This document shows, one piece after another, positions 40,478-50,859 of a DNA stretch of 64,000 bases (its first letter is position 1; every line of letters begins with the position of its first letter). A model generated the notes under the pieces. The model did no database searches. It saw nothing but the letters and a program-made list of their open reading frames with translations, and was not told the origin of the DNA. This stretch comes from Streptomyces broussonetiae (GTDB lineage Bacteria; Actinomycetota; Actinomycetes; Streptomycetales; Streptomycetaceae). The DNA lies in NCBI RefSeq assembly GCF_009796285.1, contig NZ_CP047020.1, positions 8,680,001-8,744,000 of the forward strand, given 5' to 3'. The position numbers and the translations under genes are program-made.

Positions 40478-40861
40478 TCATGCGCCGCCCTCGGCGAGCA
40501 GGGTGCGCAGCGCCCGCTCCTCCTCAGGGCTCAGCCCCGTGACGAACTGCTGGAGCGCGGCGATCGGGTCCGGGCCCCGGGACAGGGCCTCGTGCATCGC
40601 CTGGGCGGTCAGTTCCGCCGCGTTCTTCGCCGGCCGGTACGCACCCCGCCGCCCGTTCGCGTCGCGCAGCACCAGCCCCTTGTCGTACAGGCGTTTGAGG
40701 ATGGTGTGCACCGTGTTGTAGGCCAGTGCCCCGTCGACCTCGGCCTGGATCTCCGCCGGGGTCAACGGCCGCTCGGTGGCCCACAGTGCGGCCAGCACCT
40801 CGCTCTCCAGCGCCCCGGCGCTGCGCCGCTCCGCCCTGCCGCGGGACTCTGTGCCAGCCAT
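40478..40861 (-). CDS. BlaI/MecI/CopY-family repressor
   Basis: 127 residues, single winged helix of the Penicillinase_R type: LESEVLAALWATERPLTPAEIQAEV, LAYNTVHTILKRLYDKGLVLRD and GRRGAYRPAKNAAE, then a C-terminal dimerisation helix. It has no metalloprotease (BlaR/M56) partner nearby. A perfect palindrome with TACA/TGTA core at 41010-41028 lies between this gene and the divergent small ORF and flippase genes, and a similar one precedes the dedA operon at 47322. Likely represses the divergent genes and itself. Confidence 0.86.
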   Translation of the reverse strand: MAGTESRGRAERRSAGALESEVLAALWATERPLTPAEIQAEVDGALAYNTVHTILKRLYDKGLVLRDANGRRGAYRPAKNAAELTAQAMHEALSRGPDPIAALQQFVTGLSPEEERALRTLLAEGGA

Positions 40862-41065: not shown

Positions 41066-41263
41066 ATGAGGGCCCGCAGCGCGCACGTCACACTCGCCGG
41101 ACCACCGAGCGAGCGTTCCCACGGCCTGCCCGTCGCCGGCCGCCGCCCCCGGGTCACCGCCCTCGCACCGGCCCGGCCGACCCCGGCCGGGCCTGGCACG
41201 CCCGGCCGGCGGGCTCCGGCCGCCTCGCTCCGCGCAACCGGCGTACCCGGGTGCGGCCGATGA
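41066..41263 (+). CDS. Small ORF translationally coupled to the flippase-like gene
   Basis: 65 residues from an ATG with GGAGG upstream. Basic and proline-rich (MRARSAHVTLAGPPSERSHG), no recognised family and no membrane segment. Its TGA overlaps the ATG at 41260 by 4 bases (ATGA), so it may act as a leader peptide or help translate the following gene. The frame is GC-rich in third positions, but alternative frames are too; a real protein is plausible but not certain. Confidence 0.45.
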   Translation: MRARSAHVTLAGPPSERSHGLPVAGRRPRVTALAPARPTPAGPGTPGRRAPAASLRATGVPGCGR

Positions 41264-42207
41264 CGTCCCCGCCGGACCTCGCCGCGCCCCCTGTCCGGCG
41301 CCGCGCCCACTGGCACGTGTCCGTCCTGCTCGCCGTCCTGCTCGGCGGGCTCTACCTGGTCCGCCGGCACTGGCCCGTACTCGAGAGCGGGGCCGGGCGG
41401 CTGGCCGGGGCCGACCAGGGCTGGATGCTGGTCGGCGCGACAGCGGCCCTGGGCACCTGGGCGGCCTCGGCGCTGGCCCAGCAGGGCGCGGTCCTGCGAC
41501 GGCTGCCCCGGCCCCGGCTGTTCGCCGCCCAGTTCGCCGCCTCCGCCGCGGGCCACCTGCTGCCCGCCGGGCTCGGCGCCGGCGCGGTCAACCTGCGGTT
41601 CCTCATGCGCTGCGGACTGCCCGCGGGCCGCAGCGCCAGCGCCGTCGCCGTCAAGGCCACCGCCGGTGCCGTCGTCCGCCTCGCGCTGATCGCGCTGCTC
41701 GCCCCGGTCTGCCCGGGCCTGCTGCACCCGCCGCGCCTGTCGCCGACCGTACTCGCCGTCGCAGCGGGCTGTGCCGTCCTCCTTTCGGCGCTGCTCGCGA
41801 CCCCCTGGTGGCCACGCTGCCGCCGAGCCCTCGCCGTCGTACTCGCCGACATCCGCGCGCTGCACGCCTGCCCCAGCCGCGCGGCGGCCCTGTGGGGCGG
41901 CTCCCTCGCCTTCGCCGCGCTGCACTGCCTGGTCCTCATCGCCGTCGGTCAGGCCGTCGGACTGCCCCTGCCCCCGCTCCAGGTGGCCCTGCTGTACCTC
42001 GCCGCCAGCAGTGCCGCCGCCCTGCTGCCCACCCCGGGCGGCCTCGGCTCCCTGGACGCGGCCCTCGCCCTCGCCCTCACCGTCTCCGGCGCCCCCGGCG
42101 TGGCCGCCGCCTCCGCCGTGCTCGGCTACCGGCTGCTGACGGTGTGGCTGCCCCTGCTCCCGGGCCTGCTGGTGCTGGGGTTGCTGGTGCGACGCAAGGC
42201 CCTGTGA
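41260..42207 (+). CDS. Lysylphosphatidylglycerol synthase/flippase-like integral membrane protein
   Basis: 315 residues, 7-8 predicted transmembrane segments, of the UPF0104/AglD-type family: HLLPAGLGAGAVNLRFLMRCGLPAGRS, AASSAAALLPTPGGLGSLDAALALAL. The latter PTPGGxGxxD motif is diagnostic. These proteins move or modify membrane lipids or polyprenyl-linked carriers. A GTG at 41251 would add three residues. Divergent from the BlaI-type repressor across its operator, hence a likely target of it. Confidence 0.78.
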   Translation: MTSPPDLAAPPVRRRAHWHVSVLLAVLLGGLYLVRRHWPVLESGAGRLAGADQGWMLVGATAALGTWAASALAQQGAVLRRLPRPRLFAAQFAASAAGHLLPAGLGAGAVNLRFLMRCGLPAGRSASAVAVKATAGAVVRLALIALLAPVCPGLLHPPRLSPTVLAVAAGCAVLLSALLATPWWPRCRRALAVVLADIRALHACPSRAAALWGGSLAFAALHCLVLIAVGQAVGLPLPPLQVALLYLAASSAAALLPTPGGLGSLDAALALALTVSGAPGVAAASAVLGYRLLTVWLPLLPGLLVLGLLVRRKAL

Positions 42208-42282
42208 GGGCCGCGGAGTTTCCCGCGGGCCCGCTTCAGGTAGGAGTCGGGTGTCGACATGCCGCACAGGAGGGGGAGAGCC

Positions 42283-43137
42283 ATGGCGGGGAACGACCCG
42301 GCGGGGCTGCCGGACGAGGCGTTCTTCACACCCGGTACGTCGTCCTTCACCGAGTTCCTGGCCACCCACCGCCCCGGGCTCCTGCCCACCCGGCCCCGGC
42401 TGCCCGAGGGCGTACGGACGGCCCCCGACAGCTACCCGCACGGCACCACGGTGCTCGCCCTGACCTACGGCGACGGTGTGCTGATCGCCGGCGACCGCCG
42501 GGCCACCATGGGCAACCTGATCGCCCAGCGCGACCTCGAAAAGGTGCACCCCGCCGACGACTTCACGGCCGTCGCCTTCGCCGGCACCGTCGGCCTCGCC
42601 GTCGACATGGTCCGTCTGTACCAGGTCGAGCTGACGCACTTCGAGAAGATCGAGGGCATCCCGATGACCCTCGCGGGCAAGGCGACCCGGCTCGCGACGA
42701 TGATCCGGCAGAACCTCGCCCAGGCCATGCAGGGCCTCGCCGTCGTCCCGCTGCTCGCCGGGTACGACGTCACCGCCCCCGACGGCGGACGCGGCCGCAT
42801 CTTCGGCTTCGACCCAGTCGGCGGCCTGTACGAGAAGGCCGACTTCTACGCCGAGGGCTCCGGCTCGCCGTACGCCCGGGGCGCTCTGAAGAAGCTGTAC
42901 CGGCCCGGCCTGACCCGCCGCGAGGCCGTCCTCGCCGCGCTCCAGGCGCTGTACGACGCGGCGGACGACGACTCCGCCACCGGCGGCCCCGACCTGAACC
43001 GCCGTATCTTCCCCGTGGTGGCCTCGATCACCGAGGACGGCTTCGAGCGGCTGGCGCGGACGGAGACCGAGGAACTGAGCCACGAGATGATCCTGCGCCG
43101 CGGCGACCGCCCGGACGGACCGCACGCCGCGCCCTGA
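42283..43137 (+). CDS. Orphan 20S proteasome beta-type subunit
   Basis: 284 residues from the ATG at 42283 (GGAGGGGGAGAG upstream). The first 54 residues form a propeptide ending PHG; the mature N-terminus is T55 (HG-TTVLALTY). Asp17 and Lys33 equivalents are D71 and K87 (AGDRRATMG, RDLEKV), so the catalytic set is complete. The body (FAGTVGLAVDMVRLYQVEL, AMQGLAVVPLLAGYD, SGSPYARGALKKLY, ALYDAADDDSATGGPD) is clearly prcB-type. No alpha subunit, Pup, Mpa or ligase gene is in this window; the standard prcBA unit must be elsewhere. Either it replaces or mixes with the normal beta ring, or forms a separate peptidase. Confidence 0.87.
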   Translation: MAGNDPAGLPDEAFFTPGTSSFTEFLATHRPGLLPTRPRLPEGVRTAPDSYPHGTTVLALTYGDGVLIAGDRRATMGNLIAQRDLEKVHPADDFTAVAFAGTVGLAVDMVRLYQVELTHFEKIEGIPMTLAGKATRLATMIRQNLAQAMQGLAVVPLLAGYDVTAPDGGRGRIFGFDPVGGLYEKADFYAEGSGSPYARGALKKLYRPGLTRREAVLAALQALYDAADDDSATGGPDLNRRIFPVVASITEDGFERLARTETEELSHEMILRRGDRPDGPHAAP

Positions 43138-44620: not shown

Positions 44621-45294
44621 GTCAGCCGGTGGCCGATCCCGCGAGCGGTGGCGATGGTCAGCTCGCTGCCGGCCGCGCGCAGCTTGCGGCGCAGCCGGGT
44701 CAGATACTGGTCCAGCGTGTTCTCGCTGACGCGCGCTCCTTCCGGCCAGCCGGCGCGCAGCAGCTCGCGCCGTCGCACCAGCTCCCCGCCGGCCGCCGTG
44801 AGCGCGGCCAGCAGCCGGAACTCGGTCGGGGTGAGGTCCACGCGGCTGCCGTCCACGGTGGCGCCGTGCCGGACGGCGTCCAGCACCAGAGCGCCCGCGG
44901 CAGTTGACGCGGAGGCCGGCGTGGCCGGGGGTGCGGCCCGGCGCAGTGCGGCGCGCAGCCGGGCGGCCAGCTCGGCGAGGTGGAAGGGCTTGGGCAGGTA
45001 GTCGTCGCCGCCGGCCGAGAAGCCCGACAGCCGGTCGGTCAGCCCGTGCCGGGCGGTCAGGAAGACGACCGGGGCGTGGAACCCGCCCGCGCGCATCGCC
45101 TGGCAGACGTCGCGGCCGTCGGCGTCGGGCAGGCCGACGTCCAGCACCACGGCGGACACGTCCGGCGTCGCCAGCCGCAGGGCGGTGGCGCCGTCGGGCG
45201 CCGTGACCGTGTCGAAGTCCTCGTCGTGCAGACCACGGCGCAGTACGTCACGCAGGGCGTGATCGTCCTCGACGATGAGGATCCTGGGGCGCAT
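44617..45294 (-). CDS. OmpR/PhoB-type response regulator
   Basis: 225 residues. Receiver domain with EDDH acidic pair (about residue 8-11), phospho-acceptor in VVLDVGLPD (about 52) and YLPKPF (about 102); C-terminal winged helix (DLTPTEFRLLAALTAAGGELVRRREL, RRKLRAAG). The ATG at 45294 is preceded by GGAGAGAG and lies inside the tail of the PAP2 gene, giving a 47-base overlap. Cognate partner of the overlapping kinase; its targets could include this operon. Confidence 0.9.
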   Translation of the reverse strand: MRPRILIVEDDHALRDVLRRGLHDEDFDTVTAPDGATALRLATPDVSAVVLDVGLPDADGRDVCQAMRAGGFHAPVVFLTARHGLTDRLSGFSAGGDDYLPKPFHLAELAARLRAALRRAAPPATPASASTAAGALVLDAVRHGATVDGSRVDLTPTEFRLLAALTAAGGELVRRRELLRAGWPEGARVSENTLDQYLTRLRRKLRAAGSELTIATARGIGHRLT

Positions 45295-46000
45295 CTCTCT
45301 CCACCGGCCCGTCGGCCGGACCGCTCGGATGGGGTGTGCCCGGCTCGGGGGCACGCGGGAGGAAGCGCGCGGGCAGCCACCGGGCCACCGCGCGCACGAA
45401 CAGGGCGAGCCAGCCAGTGGCGAAGAGCCAGCCGCCGACGACGTCGGTGAACCAGTGCACGCCGAGGTAGACCCGGGTCAGGCCGACGCCCACGCCCCAC
45501 AGCGCGGCCAGCAGACACAGCGCGGTCCGGCCCCGCGGAGTGCGCAGACAAAGGGCCAGGATCAGCAGCCCCGCCGTGACCGCGCTCGTCGTGGTGTGGC
45601 CCGAGGGGAACGACCAGCCGGAGGCCTGTGTCTGCCAGTCGTACCGCGGCGGCCGGGCACGGGCGACCAGGTCCATCACGCCCAGGCGCACCGCCTGGCC
45701 CGTGCCGAGGCAGGCCACGGCCAGAGCGGCCGCCACCAGCCGCTGCCGTGCGCTGCGCCCCGCGATCAGCCCGGCCACCACCGCCAGGACGTACGGCACG
45801 GCGCCCGTACCCGTCGAGGTCAGCCCGCGGGCGACCGCCACCGCCACCGGCGGGCGGTGCCCGACGGACCAGGACAGCAGTTCCAGGTCCGGAAAGAGGG
45901 GGCCCTGGTCGCTGATCACCACCGCGCTCAGCACCGCGAACGCCATCCAGGCGCCCAGGGCCACCGTGCCCGCCGGCTCCGCCGGGCTCCTCGGCCTCAT
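45248..46000 (-). CDS. PAP2-superfamily membrane phosphatase (second of two)
   Basis: 250 residues with about five transmembrane segments. The three phosphatase motifs are visible: RARPPRYDW (motif C1 K/RxxxxxxRP), FPSGHTTTSA (C2, PSGH) and RVYLGVHWFTDVVGG (C3, RxxxxxHxxxD). The product is probably an undecaprenyl-pyrophosphate or lipid phosphatase on the outer membrane face. Starts at 46000, overlapping the previous PAP2 stop by 4 bases, and its tail overlaps the response regulator start by 47 bases. Confidence 0.85.
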   Translation of the reverse strand: MRPRSPAEPAGTVALGAWMAFAVLSAVVISDQGPLFPDLELLSWSVGHRPPVAVAVARGLTSTGTGAVPYVLAVVAGLIAGRSARQRLVAAALAVACLGTGQAVRLGVMDLVARARPPRYDWQTQASGWSFPSGHTTTSAVTAGLLILALCLRTPRGRTALCLLAALWGVGVGLTRVYLGVHWFTDVVGGWLFATGWLALFVRAVARWLPARFLPRAPEPGTPHPSGPADGPVERDAPQDPHRRGRSRPA

Positions 46001-46608
46001 GCCGGGTCCGACACCAGCACCGGGCGCAGCCGGGTCCCCGACAGCCGTCCGGGCAGATCCTCGGGCAGCCGTTTCAGGGCGGACATCGCAAGGAAGGCCA
46101 CCGCCGCGCCGATCGCCGCCCCCACGGCGACGTCGTGCGGATAGTGGACCCCGACCCACACCCGGGACGCCCCCATGGCACCCGCGCACAGGGCCGCCAC
46201 CGCGCCGAGACGCCGGGAGACGAAGAACAGGGCCGTCGCCGCCGCGAAGGCGATGGCCGCGTGGTTGCTCGGGAACGACCAGTCGCCCCGCGCGGGACAC
46301 GCCTCCAGCGTGCGAAAGGCCAGATGCCGGCACGGCCGGTCCTCGGCCACCAGCGGTTTCACCACACTGGTCACCGCGTAGGCCAGCACCACTACCACCG
46401 GGACGGCGAGCGCCGTCACGGCCGCGCTCGCGCCGTCCCGCCGGGCCCGCCACCAGGCGGCGAGCATGAGCAGGGCGAACACCCCGAGCCCGTACGCCGA
46501 CCAGAGCGCGATCGTGCCGTCCAGCCAGCCGGGGGCGCGGTGGGCGAGGTCCACCACGTCCCGGTAGAGCGGGCCGTCGACCGAGGAGCCCGTCAGCGCG
46601 AGGTTCAT
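45997..46608 (-). CDS. PAP2-superfamily membrane phosphatase (first of two)
   Basis: 203 residues. C1 motif KPLVAEDRPCR, C2 WSFPSNHAA (PSNH in place of PSGH, as in BcrC-type undecaprenyl pyrophosphatases) and C3 RVWVGVHYPHDVAVGA. Four to five transmembrane segments. GGGAGG lies upstream of the ATG at 46608, which overlaps the dedA stop by 4 bases. The PSNH motif makes an undecaprenyl-diphosphatase role likely. Confidence 0.85.
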   Translation of the reverse strand: MNLALTGSSVDGPLYRDVVDLAHRAPGWLDGTIALWSAYGLGVFALLMLAAWWRARRDGASAAVTALAVPVVVVLAYAVTSVVKPLVAEDRPCRHLAFRTLEACPARGDWSFPSNHAAIAFAAATALFFVSRRLGAVAALCAGAMGASRVWVGVHYPHDVAVGAAIGAAVAFLAMSALKRLPEDLPGRLSGTRLRPVLVSDPA

Positions 46609-47267
46609 CCGCGCACCTCCCGGGCGGCCCTGCGGGAGCGCAGCAGCTCGACGGCGAGCGGCAGCAGGGACACGACGACGATCAGCGCGATGACCGGCAG
46701 CAGGTACTTGTCGATGTCCGGGATCGAGGAGCCCAGCGCGTATCCGGCGAGGGTGAGGCCGAGGCTCCACACGAGCCCGCCCACCGTCTGCCAGACGGTG
46801 AAGGTCCTCGCCGGCACACCGAGCGCGCCCGCCATCGGGTTCAGCACCGTGCGCACCACGGGGACGAAGCGGGCCAGCACGATGGCCTTCGCATGGCCGT
46901 ACCGCTCGAGCAGTTCCTCGGCGCGCTGCGCGCCCTCGCGCAGCTTCGCCGACCGGGTGCGGGCCAGCAGCGCCCCGCCCGCCTTCCGGCCGATCAGGAA
47001 GCCGCACTGCGAGCCGGCCAGGGCGCCGACGGCCGCCGCGACGAGCAGTGGGCCGAGCGAGAGATGCAGCCCGCGGTCGGCGGACGCGGTGCACAGCAGG
47101 CCGGCGGTGAACAGCAGTGAGTCCCCGGGCAGGAAGAACCCGATCAGCAGGCCGGTCTCGGCGAAGAGCACCACGCCGACGCCGAGCACGCCGAAGGCGG
47201 CGAGCAGCGAGTGGGCATCGAGCACATTGACCGCGAGCTGCGACGCCAGGTGTGGGGGAGTGGCCAT
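46605..47267 (-). CDS. DedA-family membrane protein
   Basis: 220 residues from the ATG at 47267. DedA/SNARE-associated Golgi domain: VVLFAETGLLIGFFLPGDSLL near residue 30, GSQCGFLIGRKAGGAL, GHAKAIVLARFVPVVRT (FxRxxPxxR motif) and AGALGVPARTFTVWQTVGG. Members act in undecaprenyl-phosphate or phospholipid flipping across the membrane and in envelope stress resistance. First gene of the five-gene operon that runs to the histidine kinase; a BlaI-type palindrome lies upstream. Confidence 0.87.
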   Translation of the reverse strand: MATPPHLASQLAVNVLDAHSLLAAFGVLGVGVVLFAETGLLIGFFLPGDSLLFTAGLLCTASADRGLHLSLGPLLVAAAVGALAGSQCGFLIGRKAGGALLARTRSAKLREGAQRAEELLERYGHAKAIVLARFVPVVRTVLNPMAGALGVPARTFTVWQTVGGLVWSLGLTLAGYALGSSIPDIDKYLLPVIALIVVVSLLPLAVELLRSRRAAREVRG

Positions 47268-47494: not shown

Positions 47495-49525
47495 ATGTGG
47501 GACGACGCGTTTCCGAGTTTCCTGATCGGTTTGAGGGAGGGACTCGAAGCCGGACTCATCGTCTCCATCCTGGTGGCCACCCTGGTCAGAGCCGAGGCGC
47601 GCTCGCGGCTGCCCCAGGTGTGGACCGGCGTCCTGGCCGCCGTCGCGGTGGCCATGAGCTTCGGCGCAGTGCTCACCTTCACCGCCGCGTCCATGCCGCA
47701 GACCGCCCAGGAGGCGTTCGGCGGCGTCCTCAGCGTGATCGCCGTGGCGTTCGTCACCGCCATGGTCTTCTGGATGCGCCGCTCGGCCCGCAACCTGTCG
47801 AGCGAGCTGAAGGAGAAGGTGACCGGCGCGCTCGCGATGGGCTCCGGCATGCTGATCCTCACCTCCTTCCTCGCGGTCGGCCGTGAGGGCCTGGAGACGG
47901 CCCTCTTCCTGTGGACCACCGCGCGGGCGGCGGGCGAGTCGGCCGGACCGCTGACCGGCGCCGGCATCGGCCTCGTCCTCGCGGCCGGCCTGTGCTGGGG
48001 CCTGTACCGGCGCGTCCTCAAGATCAACCTGACGAAGTTCTTCACCGCCACCGGCGCCGTCCTGATCGTCATCGCGGCCGGAGTCCTCGGCTACGGCCTG
48101 CGCGATCTGCAGGAGGGCGGTGTCCTGCCCGGCAAGACCACCTACGCGTTCGACCTCGCCGGCAGCATCGACCCCGGCTCCTGGTACAGCACCCTGGTCC
48201 AGGGCGTGTTCAACCTGATGCCCACCATGACCTGGCTCCAGGTCATGGGGTACGTCGCCTATCTTGCCGTCGTGATGACGCTGTTCGTGCGCGGCGTGCG
48301 TGCCACGGCTCCCAAGCCGGCCGCGCAGCGCCCCGCGGACGAGCCGAAGGCCGAGCGGCCCGCGCGGCGCCGTCCGGTCTGGGTCGTGCCGGCCGCCGTG
48401 GTCGCCGTACCCGCCGTCATAGCCGGCTGCGTCGTCGCCTTCTCGCGGCCCAAGCCCGCCGGGGACCAGACCGTCGCCGTCTCCGAGACCGAGTGCGGCA
48501 AGGGCTTCACCGCGCCCAAGCCGGGCCGGCAGACCTTCCAGATGAAGAACACCGGCGGCAAGACCTCCGAGGTCTACCTCGTCGACCCGTCGAGCAACGC
48601 GGTGTACGGCGAGATCGAGGGCCTGGCCCCCGGCACCACCCGCGACCTCGTCGCCACCGTGGCCGGCGGCACCTATGCCTGGCGCTGCGTCCCCACCGGC
48701 GGCAGGACCGTCACCTCCAAGTCGGTCACCGTCAGCGGCGGCGGCGCCGCCATGCCGGTCGTTCCGGTCTCCGAGCAGGACCTCGCCGCGCCCCTGAAGG
48801 CGTACAAGGCGTACGTCGGCCAGGGCCTGGCCACCCTCGTCACCCAGACCCGCACCCTCGCCGACGACATCAAGGGCAACCACCTGGACAGGGCCCGCAC
48901 CGACTGGCTCACCGCCCACCGCACCTACTCCTCGCTCGGCGCCGCCTACGGCACCTTCGAGGACTTCGACAAGAAGATCAACGGCCGGGCCGACGGACTG
49001 CCCGGCGGCGTCGCGGACAAGGACTTCACCGGCTTCCACCGCCTGGAGTACGGCCTGTGGCACGGCCAGTCGGCCAAGGACCTGACCGGCCCCGCCCAGC
49101 AGCTCGCCACGGACTGTGCCGGACTGCGCAACGCCTTCCCGAGCCAGGACTTCGACCCGGGTGACCTGCCGCTGCGTGCCCACGAGATCCTCGAGAACAC
49201 CCTCCAGTTCGAGCTGACCGGCGACACCGACGAGGGCAGCGGCACCAACCTCGCCACCGCCGACGCCAACCTCTCCGGCACCCGTGAGCTGCTCACCGTT
49301 CTCAAGCCGCTGCTCACCACGCGCGCGCCCAAGCTGCTCCCCACGGTCGACGCGGACATCGCGCGCGTGCAGAAGCTCCTGGACGCGGCCCACGACGGCG
49401 AGCACTGGACGGCCGTCGACAAGCTGGCGCAGACCGACCGGCAGCGGCTGAACGGCGCCACCGGCCAGTTGCTGGAGGACCTCGCGCCGGTACCGGACCT
49501 GCTCGAGATCCGGAAGTCCGCCTGA
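47495..49525 (+). CDS. efeUO: EfeU-EfeO fusion, iron uptake permease and cupredoxin/M75 domain
   Basis: 676 residues, ATG with GGGAGGG nine bases upstream. The N-terminal half is FTR1/EfeU with seven transmembrane segments and two REGLE iron-binding motifs (14-18, 130-134). After a seventh transmembrane helix and a cytoplasmic or linker region near 290, residues 305-400 form an EfeO cupredoxin-like domain and 430-676 the M75 domain ([21 protein letters not shown]). Fusion of EfeU and EfeO is common in actinomycetes. Acts in ferric or ferrous iron import with EfeB, encoded next. Confidence 0.88.
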
Positions 49526-50859
49526 TGAACGACGACGCCTGCCCGATGGCGCCCGCGCACCCCCCGCACTCCGAAGGGAACCCACCGATGCCGACCGCCG
49601 ACACGCCGACCTGCCCCGTCGGCCCCGCCCGCCGCTCCTTCGTGCGGTCCGCGCTGGGCGCCGGCGCCGCCGGAGCGGTCCTGGCCGGCGGCGGCTTCGC
49701 CCTCGGGGAGAGCGGCGGCACGGCCGAGGCGCAGACCCCGAACGCCGACAGCAGCGCCAAGGTCCCCTTCCACGGTGCCCACCAGGCGGGGATCGTCACC
49801 CCCGCGCCGGCCGCCGCCACCTTCGTCTCGCTGAACGTGATCGCCGAGGACCGCCGGGGCCTGACCGATCTGCTCAAGACCATCACCGAGCGGGCCCGCT
49901 TCCTCACCTCCGGCGGCGCACCGGCCGACCTCGGCGTCGGCGCGCCGCCCTCCGACAACGGCATCCTCGGCCCCGAGGTCCCCTCGGACGGCCTCACGAT
50001 CACCCTCGGCGTCGGCGCCTCCCTCTTCGACGACCGCTACGGCCTCGCCAAGGCCCGGCCCGCCCGCCTCACCCCGATGCGGACCTTCCCCAACGACAAC
50101 CTGAACGCCGCCGAATGCCACGGCGACCTGTCGCTGCAGATCTGCGCCCAGAGCACGGACACCGTGCTGCACGCGCTGCGCGACATCGCCAGGCACACGC
50201 GTGGCGCCATGCAGATCAAGTGGCGCATCGACGGCTTCCAGAACGCCCCGCGCCCCACCGGCGCCCAGCGCAACCTGCTCGGCTTCAAGGACGGCATCGC
50301 CAACCCGGACGTGAACTCCGCGCGCGAGACGGACAAGCTGATCTGGGTCGGCGACGGCCAGGGCGAGCCCGCCTGGACCACCGGCGGCAGCTACCAGGTG
50401 ATCCGGGTCATCCGGATGCTGGTGGAGTTCTGGGACCGGGTCTCGCTGAGCGAGCAGGAGAAGATGTTCGGCCGCCGCAAGGACACCGGCGCCCCGCTCG
50501 ACGGCGCCAAGGAGACAGACATCCCCCAGTACGCCAAGGACCCCAAGGGCAACGCGATCCCGCTGGACGCCCACATCCGGCTCGCCAACCCGCGCACCGC
50601 GCAGAGCGACAGCTCCCGCATCCTGCGCCGCGGATTCAACTACGACCGGGGCGTGGACAACGTCGGCAACCTCGACATGGGCCTGGTGTTCTGCTGCTAC
50701 CAGCAGGACGTCAAGCGGCAGTTCGAGGCCGTACAGACCCGGCTGATCGACGAACCCCTCGTCGACTACATCTCCCCGACGGGCGGCGGCTACTTCTTCG
50801 CCCTTCCCGGTGTGCGGGACAGCAAGGACTGGCTGGGCAGCGGGATGCTGTCCGCCTGA
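49525..50859 (+). CDS. efeB: EfeB, Tat-exported DyP-type haem peroxidase
   Basis: 444 residues, ATG sharing one base with the efeUO stop (TGATG); a second in-frame ATG at 49588 with GAAGGGA upstream is a possible start. The twin-arginine signal is [18 protein letters not shown]. The DyP fold shows GFKDGIANP (the GxxDG distal-haem aspartate) and RGFNYDRG. Oxidises ferrous iron or releases it from haem in the EfeUOB system; forms the third component after EfeU and EfeO. Confidence 0.88.

Follow-up and report, generated by a model that had tools for sequence, protein, structure and literature searches.

The gene at positions 42283 to 43137 of the window, the whole 64-kb stretch of Streptomyces broussonetiae DNA analyzed here, raises the question of why a streptomycete should keep a second proteasome beta subunit away from its alpha partner, and what such a subunit might do. 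The features needed are as follows.

40478 to 40861, minus strand: BlaI-family repressor gene (PF03965), divergent to the LPG_synthase_TM gene
41260 to 42207, plus strand: LPG_synthase_TM membrane protein gene (PF03706, 91 bits), upstream neighbor of prcB2
42218 to 42245, plus strand: promoter-like box of prcB2, GTTTCC-N14-AGGTAGGA, ending 37 nt before the start codon; conserved in relaxed form in PrcB2 loci
42268 to 42278, plus strand: ribosome-binding site of prcB2, AGGAGGGGGAG, by direct reading of the sequence
42283 to 43137, plus strand: prcB2, second 20S proteasome beta subunit of 284 aa (TIGR03690, PF00227, orthologs in the genus)
42283 to 42444, plus strand: prcB2 propeptide of 54 aa, with HG just before Thr1 (alignment with the Rhodococcus PrcB1 propeptide; TPGTSSFTEFL block conserved)
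42445 to 42447, 42493 to 42495, and 42541 to 42543, plus strand: codons of the Thr1 nucleophile, Asp17, and Lys33, invariant in 27 aligned PrcB2 proteins
42535 to 42591, plus strand: S1-pocket stretch, with Leu31 (42535 to 42537), His35 (42547 to 42549), Phe45 (42577 to 42579), and Val49 (42589 to 42591), from residue comparison with canonical PrcB

The gene was found to encode an intact actinobacterial 20S beta subunit. Its product scored 353.3 bits against the bacterial 20S beta model TIGR03690 (cut-off, 191.9) and 133 bits against PF00227, and it fell below the cut-offs of the HslV and archaeal beta models (TIGR03692, 24.3 versus 157.75 bits; TIGR03634, 115 versus 224 bits). The GSGS and DDDSATGG blocks were intact, and the propeptide could be aligned to that of Rhodococcus PrcB1. 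The complete catalytic site claimed in the preliminary description was borne out, with T55, D71, and K87 of the 284-aa protein being the equivalents of Thr1, Asp17, and Lys33 and with HG preceding the threonine. An alternative in-frame start at 42259 has no visible ribosome-binding site, and the start at 42283 is supported because AGGAGGGGGAG precedes it. An AlphaFold model of PrcB2 was set aside, as its mean pLDDT was 41 (27-row alignment).

The gene could have been the normal prcB, moved away from prcA. In the whole 9.74-Mb, one-contig genome, three PF00227 matches were found: adjacent prcB and prcA at 2.354 Mb and prcB2 at 8.722 Mb, about 6.4 Mb from the canonical locus. The called proteins in the 19 kb around prcBA were recognized by reading as an ARC/Mpa-like ATPase, Dop, Pup (ending in GGQ), PafA, and two PafBC-like regulators, and by eye no Pup, Dop, PafA, or ATPase gene was recognized among the called genes of the window. 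With prcB and prcA together at 2.35 Mb beside the Pup-locus genes, a displaced normal prcB was ruled out. The earlier claim of an orphan second beta, with no alpha in the window, thus held at whole-genome scale, the other prcB being the canonical one beside prcA; prcB2 is not encoded beside prcA in the Pup locus. Linkage to prcA and the Pup locus characterizes the housekeeping gene and does not define the protein family. The suggestion of a separate, stand-alone peptidase was not supported, because any beta in this genome has a single alpha available and PrcB2 has kept its propeptide. A different ring composition, also proposed there, is the leading idea.

PrcB2 orthologs were present in 34/199 sampled Streptomyces genus genomes, including this one (at least 443 bits; 73 to 100% identity), and the next listed matches in that sample belonged to normal PrcB, scoring no more than about 345 bits with roughly 57 to 62% identity. 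A class sample gave PrcB2-level matches in 7 of at least 40 genomes of the genus and, among the matches listed, none in about 354 other genomes, while a family sample (threshold, 435 bits) gave 22/153 genus genomes and 0/144 genomes of other genera. These genus, class, and family samples overlap, and with at most 12, 6, and 8 candidates scored per genome, respectively, single copies could be missed. A scan of named genomes confirmed 312 places; the best 80, on which all counts for named loci rest, were all in Streptomyces (74 to 91% identity), and this 80-locus set shares genomes with the 34-genome set. Carriers of prcB2 in the scan include S. coeruleorubidus ATCC 13740, S. griseofuscus DSM 40191, and S. 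canus DSM 40017. An intact-looking second beta of any clade was present in 44/199 genus genomes. PrcB2 was found to be under purifying selection, with a median dN/dS of 0.24 over 561 pairs. Between members of the clade, the mature proteins were on average 84% identical; against canonical Streptomyces PrcB the mean was 61%, and the mature PrcB2 of the window was 62% identical to PrcB of the same genome.

In genome G133, an apparently frameshifted, decayed PrcB2 (L273, 9618 to 10397) occupies the syntenic place between a GT39-like gene and the usual downstream genes, and in G700 a prcB2-type orphan beta was seen only as a remnant. Because it looks decayed in these strains, prcB2 appears to be dispensable. 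A mobile-element gene was considered and rejected: there was no PrcB2-level match in the plasmid collection, where one 53% match fell on an 11.85-Mb Nonomuraea record, and partial synteny of the locus pointed to descent.

In phylogenetic trees, PrcB2 formed one clade (support, 100/100), which grouped at 100/98 with three second betas of another family of the class (f17) and the Streptomyces copies L213 and L214, and this grouping fell outside canonical Streptomyces PrcB. For the careful tree, six pocket columns were removed and 66/87 rows were used. L210 was dropped from all column counts and later trees, L185 from the careful and updated trees while being kept in the column counts, and L298 from the updated tree and the column counts; L211 and L263 gave no usable beta. 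Ten more apparently intact second betas lay outside the PrcB2 clade among the 199 genomes; two of them are L213 and L214, and the other eight, together with four later finds, made up a second orphan clade, placed beside canonical Streptomyces PrcB. The labels "second" and "canonical" were first set by score and residues, and the check for an adjacent alpha motif came later. The motif was found beside 37/37 canonical Streptomyces rows, 0/17 second-beta rows, and 0/34 PrcB2 flanks, and beside only 7/17 rows labeled canonical from other genera, so that 10 of those labels are unconfirmed; at L206 (G120), a contig end falls where alpha would be.

Some genomes showed unusual arrangements of the housekeeping gene itself. 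In G824, the alpha-side beta (L298, C1:262361-263176) looks decayed, with Lys33 lost, Pro49, and 48% identity, and an intact-looking orphan beta, L293, lies elsewhere and may have taken over the housekeeping role. Genome G615 has two Ala49 beta genes (L289 and L295) with an alpha-like motif in both loci, so that this member of the family may have two prcBA pairs. The sole beta match in G388 (L185) carries Met49 and Ala31, residues uncommon in housekeeping betas, and the sole beta gene found in G180 (C2:8419294-8420137) spans two overlapping matches, indicating a frameshift or a sequencing error.

The two subunits of the present genome differ in the S1 pocket, a point absent from the preliminary description, as is any link to inhibitor resistance. 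Counted from Thr1, Leu31, His35, Phe45, and Val49 were present in 34/34 PrcB2 proteins of the genus sample, whereas canonical Streptomyces PrcB had Ile31, Phe35, Ile45, and Ala49 in 6/6; in a larger canonical set, Ala49 was found in 52/53 and Ala20 in 53/53. Among the best 80 of the 312 named places, Leu31, Phe45, and Val49 occurred in 80/80 and His35 in 79/80, with Tyr35 in the remaining one. Judged from these residues, the S1 pocket of PrcB2 is probably narrowed. The pattern bears on whether PrcB2 is a redundant paralog, that is, a spare beta doing the job of PrcB and kept by dosage or drift. A spare copy would fit the retained catalytic residues and propeptide, the patchy distribution, and the decay in some strains, but it would hardly show pocket changes fixed in 34/34 and, bar one Tyr35, 80/80 (best 80 of 312) loci, together with its own conserved box, a dN/dS of 0.24, and 84% mean identity within the clade. 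Redundancy is accordingly considered very improbable.

Pocket changes were not confined to PrcB2. Val49 was present in 30/30 rows of the PrcB2 superclade, and all 12 rows of the second orphan clade were changed at both 20 and 28, with residue 49 changed in 9/12 (Val in 5, Thr in 4). When 48 canonical betas were compared, 119 columns showed conservation of 93% or more, and among these only residue 49 was altered in every row of three orphan groups (30, 3, and 4 rows); the single-row group L215, an orphan that keeps Ala49, fell outside this criterion. A prediction fixed beforehand for six genomes, that orphan copies lose Ala49, was borne out in 2/4 scorable cases. The orphans of G764 and G698 fit, and those of G595 and G824 failed, both still being changed at 20 and 31; two genomes were unscorable, G615 because both copies adjoin an alpha motif and G700 because a remnant is all that is left. 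The prediction that the alpha-side copy keeps Ala49 failed in G824, where that copy has Pro49 and has lost Lys33. One clade for all non-Ala49 orphans was unrejected by the AU test (p = 0.175), and independent gains at residue 49 are therefore not proven. The safer general statement is that all aligned orphan betas have an altered S1 pocket, residue 49 being the conserved position most shared by the two clades.

Phe45 and Val49 of PrcB2 are the pair reported for SalI, in which Met45Phe and Ala49Val confer self-resistance to salinosporamide A in S. tropica (PMC5721123). SalI has been described as 58% identical to the normal beta, with differences at positions 45 and 49 (PMC6449301), and 30-fold resistance has been attributed to it (PMC6804068). 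Accounts of these changes differ: PMC4177604 attributes the effects on resistance, specificity, and cleavage of the prosequence to Ala49Val and writes Met45Val in place of Met45Phe, and PMC6449301 also states a "greater binding affinity," at odds with the other papers on SalI. For human PSMB5, A49V was reported to make myeloma cells resistant to all inhibitors tested, and in haploid stem cells it abolished chymotrypsin-like activity (PMC7932915). In view of the latter, Val49 might be the mark of a poorly active enzyme and not of a resistant one. Resistance of cores containing PrcB2 to inhibitors is suggested by the matching residues.

If such resistance exists, it might serve a producer. In this explanation, of the SalI kind, prcB2 shields its host from a proteasome inhibitor that the host itself produces, the biosynthetic cluster lying at another place in the genome. 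The substitutions are those of SalI (PMC5721123), and a pan-genome study (PMC8510958) counts cluster-adjacent proteasome beta genes of S. avermitilis and S. bingchenggensis among the self-resistance candidates. However, gene calls in the window and in the flanking DNA fetched for the 34 PrcB2 loci included no large modular synthase, the called proteins not exceeding 895 and 907 aa, respectively; judged by ORF size in these regions, prcB2 does not lie in an inhibitor biosynthetic cluster. A single inhibitor for all hosts is also unlikely, given a partly syntenic locus across many species, and producer self-resistance is thus regarded as improbable. The 14 flanks of the other second betas encoded proteins of up to 1048 aa, with no obvious synthase by eye.

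The nearer neighbors were variable. By tblastn with one query per gene, LPG_synthase_TM was upstream in 20/34 PrcB2 loci (one a partial match), and BlaI, also with one query, was within 4 kb upstream in 10/34. A GT39-like membrane gene, so labeled by reading, was upstream in 26/34, and one or other of the GT39-like and LPG_synthase_TM genes in 29/34. A GH65 gene was upstream in 18/34, and L064 and L067 had none of the queried neighbors. These genes come and go among the loci and do not make up a constant operon. The preliminary description had set prcB2 next to a BlaI-regulated membrane gene; the adjacency is correct for the window, but it appears to be incidental, with BlaI in 10/34 loci and a box belonging to prcB2 itself in the intervening gap. 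An operon with LPG_synthase_TM, or control by BlaI, was likewise weakened, as the neighbors vary while the box stays.

Farther downstream on the minus strand of the window (45248 to 47267), two PAP2 phosphatases and a VTT-domain protein are encoded in a row beside a two-component system, and genes of this block are also found downstream of prcB2 at some of the 34 loci. On the plus strand, a 676-aa protein fusing an FTR1 iron permease and an imelysin (M75) domain (47495 to 49525) is followed by a Dyp-type peroxidase (49525 to 50859). We take the genes at 47495 to 50859 to be an EfeU-EfeO fusion with EfeB.

The box itself was conserved. In its relaxed form, GTTT-N14-22-GGTAG, it was found upstream in 114/114 PrcB2 loci representing 98 distinct contexts (the 34 plus the best 80 of 312, with genomes shared), and in the strict form, GTTTCC-N14-[AT]GGTAG, in 105/114; chance expectation was 0.2 in 112 shuffled stretches. 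It ended 35 to 39 nt before the start in 29/34 genus loci, whatever the upstream gene. It was absent upstream of canonical genes (0/45) and of the other second-beta genes (0/14), the latter including the decayed copy of G133 and one gene with little upstream DNA. In the present genome, GTTTCC-N14-18-GGTAGG occurred once, at the prcB2 site, and a reversed control pattern occurred four times. With one mismatch allowed, the box pattern was found in two places, the second preceding short genes, and the control in one; no regulon was seen in this genome by pattern search. Without mismatches the reversed control was commoner than the box, so the argument rests on the conservation of the box and not on its rarity.

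A similar arrangement, GTTTCC-N13-GGGTAT, has been reported for the SigB- and SigL-dependent S. coelicolor promoter SCO1089p, and GTTT is best kept in the SigF/H/N group of promoters of the S. coelicolor SigB homologues (PMC8346170). In the same report, the -10 element of SigB-homologue promoters almost always begins with G, whereas the prcB2 box has A or T there. A SigB-family promoter is therefore put forward as an inference, the two being alike in GTTTCC and different at the start of the -10 element.

The likeness of the box to SigB-family promoters gives weight to a reading in which the switch of specificity came first: PrcB2 would replace PrcB in stress or sporulation and shift the range of peptides and substrates cut, much as immunoproteasome beta-i subunits do in eukaryotes, and resistance would be a by-product, inhibitors not being the selective force. 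The window and the 34 flanks, with no called protein above 895 and 907 aa, respectively, agree with it, as does the alteration of four pocket positions and not of 49 alone, and A49V has been reported to alter specificity too (PMC4177604). Against it stands the exact Phe45 and Val49 pair, which equals the pair reported for self-resistance (PMC5721123). Specificity as the primary cause is unlikely on this balance but is a serious competitor.

The explanation preferred here, and held to be modestly probable, is that prcB2 encodes a conditionally expressed alternative beta that gives inhibitor-tolerant, re-specified 20S cores with PrcA. The gene would have a promoter of its own, active under particular conditions and probably recognized by a SigB-family stress or sporulation sigma factor, and the product would be processed at Thr1 like normal PrcB. 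PrcB2 would then join PrcA, the sole alpha, in 20S cores whose beta rings consist wholly or partly of PrcB2. With the S1 pocket narrowed by Leu31, His35, Phe45, and Val49, such cores would work despite P1-directed covalent inhibitors from other actinomycetes and would cut with a different P1 preference. Purifying selection, a fixed noncanonical pocket, a conserved box, and lost linkage to prcA together agree with an alternative beta that is produced on demand to serve the PrcA ring. Tolerance is favored by the identity of Phe45 and Val49 with SalI, and conditional use by the box and the lack of a cluster. The main gain may lie in inhibitor tolerance or in altered cutting, tolerance being somewhat the more probable.

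A broader form of this explanation is more speculative and, taken whole, doubtful, although not lightly dismissed. PrcB2 would be a bacterial counterpart of the immunoproteasome subunits, a SigB-family-controlled beta that replaces PrcB on the PrcA ring in stress or sporulation and brings both altered cutting and inhibitor tolerance. The second orphan clade would have rebuilt its pocket by changes at 20, 28, 31, and often 49, so that pocket switching would be recurrent and SalI one example captured by a cluster.

The residue changes of PrcB2 at known drug-resistance spots suggest a swappable, drug-tolerant proteasome. If this is true, bacteria alter the chemistry of their proteasome by swapping the catalytic ring, proteasome-inhibitor tolerance is a standing trait of many soil actinomycetes and not a producer's private trick, and natural variation reveals substitutions that leave a drug-resistant proteasome active. 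The novelty is not full, as SalI is already known and a pan-genome study has named proteasome beta genes near clusters in S. avermitilis and S. bingchenggensis as self-resistance candidates (PMC8510958). Among the titles and abstract openings listed, no published description of such a Streptomyces beta clade was found.

PrcB2 shares with the usual actinobacterial PrcB its family (TIGR03690), Thr1, Asp17, and Lys33, the GSGS and DDDSATGG blocks, and the propeptide; it differs in lying away from prcA and the Pup genes, in residues 31, 35, 45, and 49, and in its own promoter-like box. Like SalI, it accompanies a normal PrcB in its genome as an extra beta and has Phe45 and Val49, and the two are similarly distant from the housekeeping beta (58% identity for SalI [PMC6449301] and 62% for PrcB2). 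Unlike SalI, which lies inside the salinosporamide cluster of Salinispora tropica, PrcB2 is beside no large synthase gene and is found in many species at a partly syntenic place with a conserved box. A 2026 review gives one alpha and one beta per species in these orders, with Rhodococcus erythropolis apparently excepted (PMC13022661). That organism (alpha1, alpha2, beta1, and beta2) also has more than one beta in an actinomycete, but it has two alphas, and its PrcB1 has Ile45 and Ala49. The beta-i subunits of the eukaryotic immunoproteasome would be functional analogues, in that a beta would be swapped on one alpha ring according to conditions, and kinship with PrcB2 is claimed no further than the shared beta family.
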